Positions 18,652 through 37,896 of a stretch of DNA of 64,000 nt are shown here, piece after piece. Where the stretch lies: positions 124,001-188,000 of the forward strand of contig FUZM01000004.1 in the NCBI GenBank assembly GCA_900167925.1, written 5' to 3'. Made by a program: the position numbers and the translations under genes. The stretch is from Bacteroidales bacterium WCE2008 (GTDB lineage Bacteria > Bacteroidota > Bacteroidia > Bacteroidales > UBA932). Positions within the stretch are counted from its first letter, which is position 1. Each line of letters begins with the position of its first letter. The notes beneath the pieces are model-generated. The model was not told the DNA's origin. It saw only the letters and a list, made by a program, of their open reading frames with translations, and did not search any database.

Positions 18652-21492
18652 ATGAAAAAGTTTTTTTACATTCTTGCAGCTGCGGCCGCAGTTTCTACGG
18701 TTTCCTGCCAGAAGGCAGAGACCGAAGTGTCCGAAGTGACTGAAATGGTGCACATGGAAGTCATTTCTCCAAGTACCAAGACTCACCTCGATACCGACGG
18801 AGCTACTTCTCTCTGGGATGCCACCGGAGAAAAAATCATGGTTCTCCAGACGGCCGGGACAAGAACTACCTATACCGAATCAGCAGAAGGAACCACCGGC
18901 GACGGAGGACATACCATGTCTTTCGGCGTAGATCTCGAAGCATCCGACGCCACCTCCTTCAGCTACTATTCGATCTATCCTTCAGCCAACTATGTCATCG
19001 GTTCTAATCTGAACGTAGAAGCTCTCAAGGTCATTACACCTACAGCCCAGAAGCCTTCGGCAACCTGCTTCGACCCTAAAGCCGACCTTCTCATCTCATC
19101 TAAGGTCGAGTCGGCGACCCAGCCTGCTACCCTTTCTATGAGTTATGCAAGAAAGGTCGCTCTCGGAGTAATGAAGATCTCGAACCTCAACACTACCGAG
19201 AATGTTGTTTCTGTCAAATTCGAGTCTGAAGGCAAGTCTGTCACCGGACGCAGCAGAATCAATCTCAACAACGGTCATGTCGATGAATACGGATATTCCG
19301 GAAGCAGCTTCGACAACGTGACCATGGATTACTCCGGACAGACAATCGCCGCCAACGGCATGACTGCGTACTTCTTCTGCATGCCTTTCAGTCTTGCTGA
19401 AGGAGACTCCTTCAAGGTTACCGTCAGGACAGAATCGCTGCAGTTCACCAGGGTTGTCACCCTTGCCGGTGCCCAGCAGCTTCAGTTCAAGGCTGGAGAC
19501 AAGTCTTCTTTCAACGTCGATTTCTCAGGCATCGAAGGCGTAGTCGTAGCCCACGATATCCGCTATGCCGTTCTTTCCGCAAGCGAGGTAAGCAGCCTTT
19601 CATACTCCTACACAAGCGCCGGCGACTATGTTCAGCCGAATGGCGCCAACTGGAGTATCGCCGCAACGAAGAACTCCTCGAACATCCAGCTCGGAGACGC
19701 CACTTCAAATAAGAATGCAGGCAAAAGCTACATCAAGCTTCCTGATTTCGTGAAGGATATCAGGAAAGTTATCGTTACTCTGGAGGGTCCTGTCAGCGAC
19801 AAGACTCTCGCCCTTGTTCCGGACAAAGAGACCAAGCCGGCCGATGACGAGAAGATCGCTTCCATAACGACGGACAACACTCTTACCCAGACCATCGATC
19901 TCGAGTCCCAGGACATAACAGGAATCAAGACCGCATATCTGCGTGGCGATGCAACCTTCAGAATCACCAAGATCGAGGTTTACGCCGGTCCGGACAACAG
20001 GACAGCCCTTGCCGCTCCGTCAAACGTCCAGGCAACCGTAGATGCAAGCACGCCTAACAAGATCAATGTCAGCTGGGAAGCAGTCACAGGAGCCGAAAGC
20101 TATGTAGTTACCGCCACCCCTGCTTCCGGCGAGCCTGTTGAAGAGAATGTAACTACGACGAGCGTATCGTTCTCCGGTCTCCAGTATAGCACCCAATACG
20201 CCGTAACGGTTCTCGCCAAGGCCGCAGATATTTCTGTCAATATCGACTCCCCTGCTTCTGCAGCTGTCAACGTCACAACCGGTTCTGCCGCCACCTCCAA
20301 GATTTCCTATAATCTGGTATCAGATGTAGCAAATCTTACGGCCGGCAAGTATCTTATCGCTACAAACAACAAGAGCGCACTCTATAACGGTCGTGTAAGC
20401 AGCGGCCATCTTCAGACTGTAGAAACAGGTTCAGCCCTCGGAAGCACCGTACTTCCAGCCGATGTACCTGCGACTGCCCGGGAAGTGGATTTCACCGCTG
20501 TAACAGGCGTTGAAAATGCTTATTATCTGTCAGTTGACGGCAAGTATATCTATCTTTCAGCTACAGGTTCCGGCAAATTCAAGATTGACGGGACTGAGGC
20601 TTTCCAGTGGAACTTCTCCAATGTTTCAGGAGCAGGTCTTGACGCTGTCGGCGCGACAATCGCTTCCCATATCTGCTCTTATAACAACGGTTCGTTCAGA
20701 TCATACGGTTCCATGGGCAACGGACAGTCAATCTATCTCTACAAGCTTGTAGACAACAGGGATGCTCTTGCCGCTCCTACCGGAATGACTGCTACTCTCG
20801 ACGATACTGACAACACCAAGATCAATGTTACCTGGAATGCTGTCGCCAATGCTGGCGGATATGTCCTCAAAGCAACTCCGGCAGAGGGCCAGACAGTAGT
20901 CGATACCGTCAAGGTTGGCTCGGCGACTTCCGGAAGCCTTACCGGACTCGCATACGAGAAGGCTTACACAGTATCTATGTACGCCATCCCGTCCGACGTT
21001 AACAACTACAAGAATTCCGCAGTCGTAACATATCCTACCGCTGTAACTACAGGAGCAAACACAAGCAACGTAGTAGTCCTCGACCAGGCCGCAATCACCG
21101 CTGCTCATACATCGAACTGGACATACACAAGCGGCGACAAGGCTATCACGGCCGCTGACGGTTCCGTATGGCATGCATACAACACCTTCGGTAACGCCAA
21201 CCAGACAACCCTGCAGATGAACAGGGGCAAGAGCGCTTACCTGCTTTCTCCGGTTGTCAGCGGATCAATCAGAAGAATTACCGTGGTGCAGGCTTCCAGC
21301 AACGCAGGAAACAATACCAACGGTACAAGAGTGATGGATGTACTGACTCCGGACGGCACAGGTACAATCGTATCCTCAAGTACTCTCAATGGCGTTTCAA
21401 TCTCCGGCACTCACAATCAGGTCAGGATAATCGCCAACGAGACTTCCGGCGGAGCTACCTATATTGTATCTGTCACTATTGAATATGAGTGA
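18652..21492 (+). CDS. Fimbrillin-like surface lipoprotein with FnIII domains
   Basis: The 946-aa protein starts MKKFFYILAAAAAVSTVSCQ (lipobox Cys19). Residues about 25-295 are a fimbrillin-like domain (KTHLDTDGATSLW..., the usual opening). Then a beta domain, a fibronectin III module (about 460-550; NVQATVDASTPNKINVSWEAV), a 150-residue beta domain (SKISYNLVSDVANLTAGKYL...), a second FnIII module (TATLDDTDNTKINVTWNAV) and a final beta-sandwich follow. It is presumably surface-anchored and binds glycan or protein. The frame stops at TGA 21490-21492, but the same frame continues coding into the NUC1 nuclease, so the original gene was probably longer. Start set by the signal peptide. Confidence 0.85.
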   Translation: MKKFFYILAAAAAVSTVSCQKAETEVSEVTEMVHMEVISPSTKTHLDTDGATSLWDATGEKIMVLQTAGTRTTYTESAEGTTGDGGHTMSFGVDLEASDATSFSYYSIYPSANYVIGSNLNVEALKVITPTAQKPSATCFDPKADLLISSKVESATQPATLSMSYARKVALGVMKISNLNTTENVVSVKFESEGKSVTGRSRINLNNGHVDEYGYSGSSFDNVTMDYSGQTIAANGMTAYFFCMPFSLAEGDSFKVTVRTESLQFTRVVTLAGAQQLQFKAGDKSSFNVDFSGIEGVVVAHDIRYAVLSASEVSSLSYSYTSAGDYVQPNGANWSIAATKNSSNIQLGDATSNKNAGKSYIKLPDFVKDIRKVIVTLEGPVSDKTLALVPDKETKPADDEKIASITTDNTLTQTIDLESQDITGIKTAYLRGDATFRITKIEVYAGPDNRTALAAPSNVQATVDASTPNKINVSWEAVTGAESYVVTATPASGEPVEENVTTTSVSFSGLQYSTQYAVTVLAKAADISVNIDSPASAAVNVTTGSAATSKISYNLVSDVANLTAGKYLIATNNKSALYNGRVSSGHLQTVETGSALGSTVLPADVPATAREVDFTAVTGVENAYYLSVDGKYIYLSATGSGKFKIDGTEAFQWNFSNVSGAGLDAVGATIASHICSYNNGSFRSYGSMGNGQSIYLYKLVDNRDALAAPTGMTATLDDTDNTKINVTWNAVANAGGYVLKATPAEGQTVVDTVKVGSATSGSLTGLAYEKAYTVSMYAIPSDVNNYKNSAVVTYPTAVTTGANTSNVVVLDQAAITAAHTSNWTYTSGDKAITAADGSVWHAYNTFGNANQTTLQMNRGKSAYLLSPVVSGSIRRITVVQASSNAGNNTNGTRVMDVLTPDGTGTIVSSSTLNGVSISGTHNQVRIIANETSGGATYIVSVTIEYE

Positions 21493-21561
21493 AGGGATTC
21501 CGGAGACGGTATCACAGTAACTACAGGCGCAGCAACGGATATCCAGCCGTCAAGGGCAACC

Positions 21562-22605
21562 ATGACGGCTCAATATTCGGGCGTGACGGGGACGATATAC
21601 GACGCCTACTTCCAATACGGTACTTCGAGAGGGAACCTGGATCAGACGGCTTACCTGTCCAGCAACATGCCTACAGGCGCTTCCGGTTCGTTCTCATGTA
21701 CCGCCTATAGCCTGCAGCCTAACACGACCTACTACTATAGGGCCGTGATGCAGGTCGATGACGAAGATATCATGGGTGAGATCCGCTCGTTCACGACAGG
21801 ATCGACGACACCGACCCCGGGATCCGGGCCTCGCTACCTCGAGATGCCTCTTCCGGTTTCAGGAAGCGACTATTTCTCCGAGACGCTGAAAATAAGCGGC
21901 GAGAGAAACTATAGCTACCTCTACGACCTGACAAAGTATGCCGCCCTCTGGGTCGCATACCCTCTTACTGCGACGCATATAAGCGGCAGTGCAAGCTCCA
22001 GCTGGAGTTTCAACCCGAATATTTCCCAGCAGTATCAGGTCCATATAACCGGCAGCAGCTATCCGAGCAACTACAACAATGCGACGAAGTACGCCAGGGG
22101 TCACCAGATTCCGAACGCTGACAGGAAGTGCAGCAGCGAGATGAACAGGCAGACCTACTACGCGACCAACCAGACTCCACAGCTTCAGGACAAGTTCAAC
22201 GGCTCGATCTGGGAGAATCTGGAGAGCGCAGTAAGAGGTCTTACCAGCTCGACCGATACCGTCTACGTCGTCACGGGAGCATGCTTCCAGACAGTAGGCG
22301 GTTCTGAGACGATCCACTACCTCTCAAGCAAAGGCAGTGCAACGCCTCAGCAGGTACCGATCCCGAACTACTACTGGAAGGTTCTGCTCAAGGTCCGTCG
22401 CTCTGGAAGCACCATCACGGCCGCCTCCACCGTCGGAATCTGGATGGAACACAAGGAGTACGACAACCAGGACTGGTCCGGCTGCGTGGTCAGTGTCGAC
22501 GAAATCGAGACCCTCACCGGCTTCGACTTCTTCCACAACCTCCCGTCCTCCATCGGCGCCTCAGCGGAAACCAACTCCAACTGGAACACCTTCCGCAACT
22601 TCTGA
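21562..22605 (+). CDS. NUC1-type DNA/RNA non-specific endonuclease (3' part of split gene)
   Basis: The 347-aa frame opens inside a fibronectin-like module (residues 1-75, ending GEIRSFTTG), then a linker and the DNA/RNA non-specific endonuclease domain with the catalytic ARGHQIPNADR (His in RGH) and the metal-ligand region YYATNQTPQLQDKFN. It ends with the TGFDFFHNLP block typical of the family. There is no signal peptide here. The codons between the TGA at 21490 and this ATG (21493-21561) are in the same frame, open, and read as linker plus the start of the FnIII module. So this is most likely the C-terminal part of the preceding lipoprotein, separated by a nonsense mutation, readthrough site or sequence error. 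Confidence 0.8.
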   Translation: MTAQYSGVTGTIYDAYFQYGTSRGNLDQTAYLSSNMPTGASGSFSCTAYSLQPNTTYYYRAVMQVDDEDIMGEIRSFTTGSTTPTPGSGPRYLEMPLPVSGSDYFSETLKISGERNYSYLYDLTKYAALWVAYPLTATHISGSASSSWSFNPNISQQYQVHITGSSYPSNYNNATKYARGHQIPNADRKCSSEMNRQTYYATNQTPQLQDKFNGSIWENLESAVRGLTSSTDTVYVVTGACFQTVGGSETIHYLSSKGSATPQQVPIPNYYWKVLLKVRRSGSTITAASTVGIWMEHKEYDNQDWSGCVVSVDEIETLTGFDFFHNLPSSIGASAETNSNWNTFRNF

Positions 22606-22755: not shown

Positions 22756-22836
22756 CCTTTATCCCCGTCCCAGCATTTTTCTCCATCCCCTGCCGTTTTT
22801 CTCCATCCCGGCCCGATCGGGGGATCATATAATCTG

Positions 22837-23353
22837 CTGAGGGGGCAAGCATATGCCGCAGAACACGCTGCAAGGCACTTCCCTGCACCCTCAACCACTG
22901 TTTTCGCACGCTGAGGGGGCAAGCACATGCCGCAGAACACGCTGCAAGCCACTTCCCTGCACCCTCAACCACCATTTTCGCCAGCTGAGGGGGCAAGCAC
23001 ATGCCACAGAACACGCTGCAAGCCACTTCCCTGCACCCTCAACCACCATTTTCGCCTGCTGAGGGGGCAAGCACATGCCGCAGAACACACTGCAAGCCAC
23101 TTCCCTGCACCCTCAACCCTGTATTTCGGCCGTGAGGGGGCAAGAACATGCCACAGAACACACTGCAGACCACACTCCTGCACCCTCAACCACTGTATTT
23201 TCCTGCTGAGGGGGCAAGCATATGCCGCAGAACACGCTGCAGGCCACACTCCTGCACCCTCAACCACTGTTTTCGCCAGCTGAGGGGGCAAGAACATGCC
23301 GCAGAACACGCTGCAAGCCACTTTCCTGCACCCTCAACCCAGTATTTCGGCCG
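22837..23353. repeat. 74-bp tandem repeat array 1, seven units
   Basis: Units begin at 22837, 22911, 22985, 23059, 23132, 23206 and 23280; the period is 74 bases, once 73. Each unit opens with TGAGGGGGCAAG and closes with CCTGCACCCTCA, which are near inverted repeats, so each unit can fold into a long hairpin. A 17-18 base spacer of ACCACYRTTTTCGCC or ACCCWGTATTTCGGCCG type follows. It lies between the nuclease terminator and the aldo/keto reductase promoter. Open frames across it in several phases exist only because the period keeps phases free of stops. A G/A-rich stretch (23354-23495) with repeated CGGAGTGAG follows. Confidence 0.92.
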
Positions 23354-35241: not shown

Positions 35242-36519
35242 TCAGGCTTTGAGAAAGTCCATGAAGGCGTCGCGGTTCTGGACGGGGGTTGTGGTAGGGC
35301 GGCCGAGGTCGGGGCGGTTGCCTTTTCGGACGATGACCTCCAGGAAGGCCGGCCCGGCAACAGAACCGGCAGAAGAACCGGCGCTCGCAGCGGCAGAAGA
35401 ACCAGCGCCAGAGCCGGCAACAGAATCGGCAGCACCCTCGGCAACGGAGCCAGCGCCAGATCCAGCAGGAGAGCCAGCCCCAGAAAGGAGTCCCGGGAGG
35501 GCGGAGCGGAGTTCGGCGGCGGTGCTGACGCGGAGGGCAGAGCGATAGCCGACGGCGCGGGCGACAGCGCAGAGATCGACGGCAAGACCGACAGTCGGCT
35601 GGCCGCCGACGGAGTCATGAACCCCATTGTTGAAGACTATATGGACATAATTCGACGCGCCGGACTGGCCGACGATGGCCATCGAGCCCATGTGCATGAG
35701 GACGGCGCCGTCTCCGTCGAAGCAGCAGACGCGCCGGTCGGGACGCTCGAGAGCAATCCCCAGAGCGATCTGGGATGCATGGCCCATGGACCCGACAGTC
35801 AGGAAATCATGGCCATGGCCCATGCCGGCAGAAGCCCTGTATTCGAAGAGCTCGCGGCTGATCATGCCGGTCGTCGAGACGACGATATCCTGCGGGCCGA
35901 GAGCGGCGGCGACAGCCTGGATGGCCGATTCCCGGGAAAGCTCCGGGACGTTCACGGCAGCGGAAGGCTGCGCGGCAGCAGAAGGATCGGCAGCAGGATC
36001 GGCCTCGGGAGCCGAGAAAGTGCCCTTGCGGACGACGAGGGCATAAACGCCCCCTGCATTAATGACGGCGAGGGCATCGGCGATCTGGTCGGAAGCGACG
36101 GACTCATCGTCAGAAAGCACCGAATAAGGGATGCCGAGACAATCCAGAAGACTCAAAGTAATCTTGCCCTGCTTAGCATGCTGAGGCTCATCCTTCACCC
36201 CGGGCTCCCCTCTCCAGCCGATGACCAGCAAAGCCGGAAGCCCATACACATCCCCATCCATAAGAGAAGCAAGCGGATTGACCGCATTCCCCTCCCCGGA
36301 ATTCTGCATATATACGCACGCCGGCCGCCCCGTAGCAAGATAATGCCCGGCAGCAAGGCCAATGGCGCCACCCTCATTGGCAGCGATAATATTATGCCTG
36401 CTATCCAGACGGGCAGACAAGACAGCGCAGAAATTCTTGAGAAGACTATCAGGGACACCGGCAAAAAAGTCGATGCCATAGCTTCCCAGCGTATCTATGA
36501 AAAATACAGGACGAATCAT
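35242..36519 (-). CDS. Phosphonopyruvate decarboxylase-like TPP enzyme
   Basis: The 425-aa protein is a thiamine-diphosphate enzyme of the phosphonopyruvate/sulfopyruvate decarboxylase family: FFAGVPDSLLKNF, the catalytic NEGGAIGLAAGHYLATGRP block, GWRGEPGVKDEPQH, the TPP-binding GDGAVLMHMGS...FNN segment and the C-terminal ADLGRPTTTP-like end. It makes phosphonoacetaldehyde from phosphonopyruvate in phosphonate synthesis. Two low-complexity stretches are unusual: an Ala/Pro-rich linker (about 170-192) and a 43-residue Gly/Ala/Ser insert (about 346-388) encoded by short DNA repeats, making it longer than the usual roughly 380 residues. No PEP mutase or 2-AEP aminotransferase gene lies in the window, so the pathway is not confirmed. 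Confidence 0.85.
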   Translation of the reverse strand: MIRPVFFIDTLGSYGIDFFAGVPDSLLKNFCAVLSARLDSRHNIIAANEGGAIGLAAGHYLATGRPACVYMQNSGEGNAVNPLASLMDGDVYGLPALLVIGWRGEPGVKDEPQHAKQGKITLSLLDCLGIPYSVLSDDESVASDQIADALAVINAGGVYALVVRKGTFSAPEADPAADPSAAAQPSAAVNVPELSRESAIQAVAAALGPQDIVVSTTGMISRELFEYRASAGMGHGHDFLTVGSMGHASQIALGIALERPDRRVCCFDGDGAVLMHMGSMAIVGQSGASNYVHIVFNNGVHDSVGGQPTVGLAVDLCAVARAVGYRSALRVSTAAELRSALPGLLSGAGSPAGSGAGSVAEGAADSVAGSGAGSSAAASAGSSAGSVAGPAFLEVIVRKGNRPDLGRPTTTPVQNRDAFMDFLKA

Positions 36520-36549
36520 ATCACAAAGATACGACTTTTAAGAAGAAAC

Positions 36550-37896
36550 CTAACGCTTGTCGATAGGAATATAAGCATTACGGTCAGACACGACGCGGTA
36601 GGCCGGACGGATGATCCTCTTGCCGTCGAAATTCAGCTCCTCGTTACGATGCGCGCACCAACCCACTATACGGGACATAGCGAAAAGCGGAGTATAGATC
36701 TCCTTCGGCAGCCCCAGCATCTGATACACGAACCCCGAATAGAAGTCCACATTGGCGCAGAGAATCTTCCCGCGCCCTTTGGCCTCATAGACAGCCTCGA
36801 TAGCAAGGCGCTCCAGACGGGTCATGAACTCATACTCGCGCATCCTGTCCTTCTCCGCAGCGAGTTTGCAGGCCATCTCCTTGAGAAGCACGGCACGCGG
36901 ATCCGAGAGAGTATAGACAGCATGGCCGATACCATAGATAAGGCCCGTGCGGTCATAGGCCTCCTTGCGGAGTATCTTGCGGAGATAATCCATGATCTCC
37001 TGCTCATCTTCCCAGTTCTTGACGTTGTCGCGGATATGACCGACCATATCGGCGACCTGGATATTCGCGCCGCCATGCTTCGGACCCTTGAGGGAGCCGA
37101 TGCCCGCAGCGATCGATGAATATGTATCCGTACCGGTCGACGAGGTCACGCGGACAGTGAAGGTCGAGTTGTTACCTCCTCCGTGCTCTGCATGCAGAAT
37201 CATCATGACATCGAGGGTCTGCGCCTCCAGCTTCGTGAATCCCGGGCCCTTAAGCATGTACAGGAAATTCTCGGCGAGGGAGTAGTTGTCCTGCGGGTTG
37301 CGGAGATGGAACGTACGGCCGAGATCCTGGTGCCGGAGCATATTGTATGCATACGCGATGATCGTCGGGAACTTGGAGATCAGCTCGACGCTCTGGCGCA
37401 TCAGGTTCTCCGGCGACAGGTCGTCCGGATTCTCGTCGAATGTGTACATCTCCAGCACGCTGCGGGCGAGAATGTTCATGATATCGTTGCCGCCCATCTC
37501 GATGATGTGCAGAATCGTCCTCTGCTCCAGGAACATGTTGTCCATCAGAGTGCGGCGGAACGACTCCAGCTCGTCCGCCTTCGGGAGACGGCCGGACAGG
37601 AGAAGGAAACACGCCTCCTCGTAGCCGAATCGGCCCTCGGCGACGGCTGCATGGATAATATCCCGGACATCATACTCCCGGAAGAAGAGCCGGCCTTCGG
37701 CAGGGACGATCCCCTCCGGGCGCTGGTCATAGCCGACGACGTTACCGACACGGGTAAGCCCCACAAGGACACCTGTGCCGTCTTCGTTTCGCAGACCGCG
37801 CTTTACATTGTACTTCTTGAAGAGATCGATATCAATCCTGGCACACTGTACCAGGTCCTTCGAAAGACTTCTGATAAGTTCGTTTCCGCTAACCAT
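36550..37896 (-). CDS. gltA: Citrate synthase
   Basis: The 448-aa protein is a citrate synthase with catalytic His in LHAEHGGGNNSTFTVR, second His in GIGHAVYTLSDPRA and Asp in CANVDFYSGFVY. It condenses oxaloacetate and acetyl-CoA. The long form with GLRNEDGTGVLVGLTRVGNVVGYD near the N-terminus is the Bacteroidota-type enzyme and begins the oxidative branch toward 2-oxoglutarate. Start 37896 was chosen since the Met ten codons earlier has no family support; a TATCTTTG box lies upstream at 37960-37967. The 30-base gap to the phosphonopyruvate decarboxylase-like gene allows co-transcription. Confidence 0.95.
   Translation of the reverse strand: MVSGNELIRSLSKDLVQCARIDIDLFKKYNVKRGLRNEDGTGVLVGLTRVGNVVGYDQRPEGIVPAEGRLFFREYDVRDIIHAAVAEGRFGYEEACFLLLSGRLPKADELESFRRTLMDNMFLEQRTILHIIEMGGNDIMNILARSVLEMYTFDENPDDLSPENLMRQSVELISKFPTIIAYAYNMLRHQDLGRTFHLRNPQDNYSLAENFLYMLKGPGFTKLEAQTLDVMMILHAEHGGGNNSTFTVRVTSSTGTDTYSSIAAGIGSLKGPKHGGANIQVADMVGHIRDNVKNWEDEQEIMDYLRKILRKEAYDRTGLIYGIGHAVYTLSDPRAVLLKEMACKLAAEKDRMREYEFMTRLERLAIEAVYEAKGRGKILCANVDFYSGFVYQMLGLPKEIYTPLFAMSRIVGWCAHRNEELNFDGKRIIRPAYRVVSDRNAYIPIDKR

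Follow-up and report, generated by a model that had tools for sequence, protein, structure and literature searches.

What does a stop codon mean when the reading frame behind it stays open and leads into a complete enzyme domain? This question is raised by a locus in a 64,000-nucleotide stretch of Bacteroidales bacterium WCE2008 (contig FUZM01000004.1, positions 124,001 to 188,000 of the forward strand; hereafter the window, whose own numbering is used throughout). An open reading frame (ORF) for a 946-aa lipoprotein (18652–21489; N-terminus MKKFFYILAAAAAVSTVSC) ends there at a TGA (21490–21492), and the same frame continues from 21493 for 370 codons, through a nuclease, to a second TGA at 22603–22605. 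The initial annotation, made from the letters of the window, had left three options: a nonsense mutation that disarmed a surface nuclease, readthrough of the stop, or a wrong base call. Comparison of related loci favours the second. The best and simplest explanation, to which we assign a probability of about 0.8, is programmed UGA readthrough, which may add a nuclease to some copies of a surface lipoprotein. It draws on the arrangement itself, its recurrence across genomes, a near-invariant UGA, a covarying RNA hairpin, purifying selection behind the stop and a sharp onset of similarity between copies at the stop.

The layout of the locus, as it had been described, was confirmed from the sequence and by profile searches; all features lie on the + strand. 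The lipoprotein signal, judged by eye, ends at Cys19 (codon 18706–18708), and the lipoprotein matches the fibronectin type III (FN3) profile fn3 (PF00041, E = 8.2e-14), the best-scoring of two stretches being aa 455–525 (20014–20226). The TGA is followed by an in-frame open linker (21493–21597; first ATG at 21562), an FN3-like module (aa 36–102 after the stop, 21598–21798), a DNA/RNA non-specific endonuclease domain (aa 131–352, 21883–22548) and the TGA closing the frame. The match to Endonuclease_NS (PF01223, E = 4.3e-42) is complete, spanning profile positions 9–222 of 223 with 144.7 bits at a cut-off of 23, and the RGH motif (22096–22104), claimed to be intact, is indeed present and invariant in 10 aligned homologues. 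Also in agreement with the initial annotation, a signal peptide was not seen, by eye, in the nuclease part after the stop. The module in between had been taken for a complete fibronectin-like one: an FN3-like identity is plausible, but its one profile match, to Pur_ac_phosph_N (PF16656; 25.6 bits, cut-off 30), is sub-threshold and does not certify it.

The same arrangement of lipoprotein, in-frame stop and nuclease was detected at 92 distinct loci including the window, 91 with TGA and one with TAG. Most belong to one genus, most likely Candidatus Cryptobacteroides, and the arrangement also occurs in records named Alistipes (L242, L282 and L300, the last from Alistipes sp. CHKCI003, recorded as an isolate) and Tidjanibacter (L267, L276). 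Four of the first 14 homologous regions fetched were split in this way. A nuclease-alignment search of 400 genomes of the genus yielded matches with E <= 1e-50 in 338 of them; from places among the matches listed, 80 further regions were picked, mainly for a short open frame and regardless of the kind of stop. These 94 regions and the window contain 99 nuclease frames: 67 lie behind an ORF of 150 aa or longer in the same frame, 29 do not, and three are cut by a contig end. TGA ends 65 of the 67 upstream ORFs. The other two end in TAG (L162) and TAA (L182) next to nucleases with a signal or membrane segment of their own and were set aside as ordinary separate genes, which leaves TGA at 65 of 65 loci. 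In front of the 29 nuclease frames without a long upstream frame, the stops are TAA in 13, TGA in 11 and TAG in five cases. A scan of named genomes (best 80 of 311 relatives), in which places were likewise picked regardless of the stop, contributed nine loci, eight with TGA and the ninth with TAG. Fifteen more, from 20 regions fetched on the basis of a hairpin pattern or the RNA model R1, and three from the RNA model R2 all have TGA, which is part of the signals used to find them. The 65 loci come from 61 genomes; a further 13 genomes contribute the 15 and another three the three from R2, all within the one genus.

The nuclease profile matches at 91 of the 92 loci. The exception, L333, reaches its contig end 46 aa after the stop with no nuclease seen; it was kept in the count, as were L276 (upstream part 107 aa, contig end) and L329 (upstream frame 85 aa). 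L423 is the same locus as L262 and was counted once, and L319, L194 and the chance matches L325–L328 were excluded before counting. Upstream ORFs that are complete at the 5' end carry a lipoprotein-like signal in 81 of 81 cases by a permissive pattern. The initial annotation had named, as the contrary case, homologues that also end at this site next to a nuclease with its own signal peptide; this was found at none of the loci counted as split. Beyond the genus, 19 of 393 genomes searched in the order gave a match at E <= 1e-45. In the 16 of these lying outside the genus no split arrangement was present, and their nuclease homologues appear, by eye, to bear an N-terminal lipoprotein signal of their own. 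Judging by titles and abstract openings, the arrangement is not reported in the open-licence literature searched.

TGA is the rarest stop in a 244-kb sample of the WCE2008 genome: among 146 ORF-genes (at least 200 aa, longest-ORF rule), 77 end with TAA, 49 with TAG and 20 with TGA. A same-frame extension of at least 50 aa follows in two of these 20, one being the locus under study and the other, probably an antisense shadow, a TGA-ended ORF at 35616–37119 with a 282-aa extension. A T directly follows the stop at two of 65 split loci, compared with 48 of the 146 sampled genes. In E. coli, a U at position +4 lowers read-through, according to a passage in PMC5289835.

Behind the stop, most loci carry an RNA hairpin. 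Sorting of 65 loci by their post-stop sequence gave 53 of class A, with a short hairpin that is not clean in some, and 12 of class B, with a longer one; class A comprised 76 of the 89 loci then known. A Watson-Crick stem of at least 6 bp is found at the expected place in 63 of the 76 class-A loci, and 58 of the 65 loci with at least five Watson-Crick pairs have the stem starting 7 nt after the stop. A stem of 6 bp or more arises in 2.1% of synonymous recodings, and four control windows of the same genes contain one in 4, 4, 2 and 1 of 75 cases. The stems differ in sequence, CCGGCG/CGCCGG, CCGTCG/CGACGG, CCGACG/CGTCGG, CCGCCG/CGGCGG and CCGGAGG/CCTCCGG being found among others, and Alistipes has two quite different G-rich 9-bp stems, both beginning 10 nt behind the stop. 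Three alignments, of 30, 14 and 12 loci, have 98.5%, 99.1% and 98.1% of their cells paired and display compensatory changes; the covariation score was equalled by 0, 0 and 1 of 500 shuffles, respectively, and by no slid control. The hairpin also served to find loci. A degenerate hairpin pattern hit 40 places in 37 of the 400 genomes, its reversed version five places, and 28 of 30 matches fetched revealed the in-frame arrangement (one cut by a contig end), the other two being a site with a second TGA and a chance match. With R2, a search on RNA only, 20 of 20 matches with E < 3e-9 fell on in-frame nuclease sites, of which 11 had been used to build the model and nine had not, including three new loci. 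The 16 weaker matches (E 2.4e-5 to 0.009) comprise nine known split loci, six inspected non-sites and, as the remainder, G128. No T-run was seen, by eye, behind the hairpins, and intrinsic terminators were dismissed as their identity. For the family, a conserved cis signal near the stop is thus observed, while in the window this signal is weak.

The protein sequence encoded after the stop is constrained. Thirteen close pairs of loci, hand-selected on the tree and not including the window, have a ratio of non-synonymous to synonymous substitution rates (dN/dS) of 0.08–0.27 after the stop, and in eight of these pairs the upstream proteins are only 23–27% identical. In-frame stops with a coding-constrained extension are hence documented by 92 loci and these 13 pairs. 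The nuclease parts of the relatives show purifying selection without decay and were not regarded as pseudogenes; the window copy, which lacks a close pair, was judged in this respect by its open frame and intact motif only.

Similarity between copies begins abruptly. DNA identity in 12 hand-picked pairs lies at 0.25–0.36 between positions -48 and -7, rises to 0.57 over the six bases directly preceding the stop and reaches about 0.9 from the stop codon onwards. Since similarity starts at the stop codon, the TGA, the hairpin and the nuclease look like a cassette placed on varying lipoproteins. "Varying" is a safer word here than "unrelated", because single linkage at 30% identity and half coverage joins 72 of 89 upstream proteins, which form one broad modular group; at 50% identity they fall into 66 clusters. 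A quick tree was built from 154 nuclease domains, a set enriched for splits and labelled by length rules, so that a few "standalone" rows may be mis-typed. An in-frame stop splits off 88 of these domains, 44 are fused with no stop in between, and 22 stand alone. One polypeptide, as the initial annotation had expected for homologues, is therefore seen in the 44 fused cases, but not in the 88 split and 22 stand-alone ones. On this tree the split state requires 16 changes, at least 10 by well supported branches. Two contigs, G288:C59 (L133, L146) and G187:C79 (L142), each hold two convergent cassettes, about 11 kb and 1 kb apart, respectively; recombination between such copies could exchange upstream lipoproteins. 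At L194 (G255:C9), the linker resembles the cassette in a shifted frame, and a TAA precedes the nuclease frame. Adjoining the nuclease gene of the window downstream is a tandem array (22836–23339; 74-base unit, 6.8 copies).

We propose the following course of events. For the majority of ribosomes, the UGA would be the end of translation and the product a complete surface lipoprotein. A smaller number would be delayed by the RNA hairpin starting about 7 nt after the stop and would accept a near-cognate tRNA at the UGA, most likely tRNA-Trp-CCA, of which one is present among the 41 tRNA matches, all with an anticodon assigned, in the WCE2008 genome. Translation would then cross the linker, which is rich in Gly and Ser in most copies, and go on into the nuclease. 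As the extended protein carries the lipoprotein's own signal, the nuclease would be exported and anchored with it and would appear in a low, fixed proportion. UGA, hairpin, linker and nuclease would act as a single unit on varying lipoproteins. More generally, we think it probable that this is a portable bacterial recoding cassette, located at the stop of many Bacteroidales surface lipoproteins, each of which would be presented mostly in bare and partly in nuclease-tipped form.

Several observations weigh against programmed readthrough or narrow its reach. That ribosomes read through at all, how efficiently they do so and with which residue, and that the product is exported and acts at the surface are steps that we infer. 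Fewer than six Watson-Crick pairs are present in 13 of the 76 class-A loci; with G.U pairs allowed, seven of these 13 reach at least seven pairs, and the other six, the window included, do not. Of the 53 class-A loci, 44 were sorted by loop size into the alignments A4 and A5; the nine omitted include the window and others with different loops or weak stems, and the pair counts given above therefore lean towards structure. Further pair types as numerous as in A5 were reached by 321 of 500 shuffles, and pair changes on both sides as in A4 by 16 of 500. The folding energy of the first 48 nt is lowered only to a moderate degree, with a mean z of -1.19 relative to synonymous recodings and p <= 0.05 at 20 of 88 loci. 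For comparison, two windows further downstream gave means of -0.18 (5 of 87) and -0.24 (9 of 87), and an upstream window gave +0.49 (3 of 88). A stem of at least 6 bp also occurs in the equivalent window of six of 25 fused homologues, compared with 47 of 69 split loci. Two loci are irregular: L276 (Tidjanibacter, JAGBVY010000097.1), with its upstream frame of 107 aa, is the only split locus with TAG, and at the hairpin site L319 (G031:C12), perhaps a decayed copy, another in-frame TGA follows the first after four codons. Finally, the hairpin of the window itself (21496–21513, + strand; -6.3 kcal/mol in 39- and 48-nt windows) is a degenerate copy. It reads GAT, a U.U mismatch, CCG, the loop GAGA, CGG and ATC, i.e. 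3+3 pairs around the mismatch, and, as in the relatives, its inner CCG begins 7 nt behind the stop. The first 48 nt fold less stably here than synonymous recodings (z +2.0), and a search of the WCE2008 genome with the pattern, R1 and R2 returned no match. Because its hairpin is degenerate, the claim of readthrough is weaker for the window copy; homology and the conserved position carry its case more than the hairpin does.

Other explanations have to accommodate the same data. The lipoprotein might simply stop at the TGA, with the nuclease being a second gene translated by reinitiation and the hairpin aiding this coupling; the nuclease would then act in the cytoplasm or leave it by an unknown route. 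UGA is a normal protein end in these bacteria, release factor 2 (RF2) scoring over the cut-off in 10 of 10 genomes, and some in-frame ATG, GTG or TTG lies between the stop and the nuclease core in 71 of 88 split loci. However, none of the 88 has an ATG within 20 codons after the stop and 66 have none of the three codons there; before the nuclease core, ATG is missing from 45 and all three are missing from 17. Moreover, the nuclease shares the frame of the lipoprotein at the counted loci, L194 being the only cassette in another frame, although the same frame was partly a selection criterion for most loci. No signal peptide was recognized by eye after the stop, in contrast to the apparent lipoprotein signals of the homologues outside the genus. 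We regard two genes as unlikely. Special decoding of the UGA, be it as selenocysteine, by a suppressor tRNA or after the stop has been edited, is less likely still. A hairpin right behind a UGA does resemble the bacterial selenocysteine insertion sequence (SECIS), but tRNA-Sec and SelB each exceeded the cut-off in 0 of 10 genomes (a set partly different from the ten examined for RF2; selA and selD were not searched for), and none of the 41 tRNA matches of the WCE2008 genome has the anticodon UCA, CUA or UUA. Selenoprotein synthesis and suppressor tRNAs were discarded on these grounds. General reassignment of UGA to sense was rejected in view of RF2, the 20 of 146 sampled genes ending with TGA and the missing UCA anticodon in this genome. 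Translational hopping of the kind reported for T4 gene 60 was dropped, since the loci differ in the codon that precedes the stop.

A switch at the level of DNA, with the nuclease cassette being silent until recombination places it on a lipoprotein without a stop, would suit the sharp onset of similarity in the 12 pairs, the paired convergent cassettes in G288 and G187 and the recurrent changes of the split label on the tree. A silent cassette, however, needs no in-frame coding linker, nor would it call for a hairpin that covaries as pairing within coding sequence at a fixed spacing from the stop, and this scenario is quite improbable. A nonsense mutation, pseudogene or base-call error would fit a single isolated copy, and the weak hairpin of the window agrees with it. 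Yet 91 other loci, one of them in the isolate-recorded genome carrying L300, share the in-frame stop and, in the 13 pairs tested, a post-stop part under purifying selection. These two of the three original options are therefore disfavoured: recurrence refutes them as a general account, and for the window copy they are hardly credible. Programmed readthrough thus remains the preferred explanation.

If correct, this explanation would reveal a family of bacterial chromosomal genes in which an RNA structure drives readthrough of the stop codon, and would mean that bacteria, too, set protein ratios by programmed readthrough. Standard annotation would be expected to list such loci as a lipoprotein plus an orphan nuclease, or as a pseudogene, so that a nuclease on the surface of gut and rumen bacteria would go unnoticed. 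The cassette would also represent a natural experiment, in which one recoding signal has been combined with many lipoproteins.

How does this system relate to known ones? Like DNA/RNA non-specific endonucleases of PF01223, the nuclease has a complete domain with the RGH motif; what differs is its place behind the in-frame stop of a surface lipoprotein. To our knowledge, programmed readthrough driven by a 3' RNA structure is familiar from viruses and eukaryotes. The coat/A1 readthrough of phage Q-beta shares with our proposal UGA readthrough in bacteria that yields a minority of an extended surface protein, but it belongs to a phage RNA genome and involves no cassette; we know of no family of covarying hairpins for it comparable to the one described here. 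Bacterial SECIS elements likewise consist of a UGA closely trailed by a hairpin within coding sequence, whereas tRNA-Sec and SelB were over the cut-off in none of our ten genomes. A further parallel is viral stop-codon readthrough with a 3' RNA structure such as that of murine leukemia virus gag-pol (PMC5009743). Both have an in-frame stop between two domains, an RNA structure on its 3' side and a ratio of short to extended product, which is our conjecture for the bacterial loci. In contrast to the viral case, the loci described here are chromosomal bacterial genes with a simple covarying hairpin, the unit appears to be portable among varying lipoproteins, and behind the stop there is a nuclease wherever the downstream part is visible.

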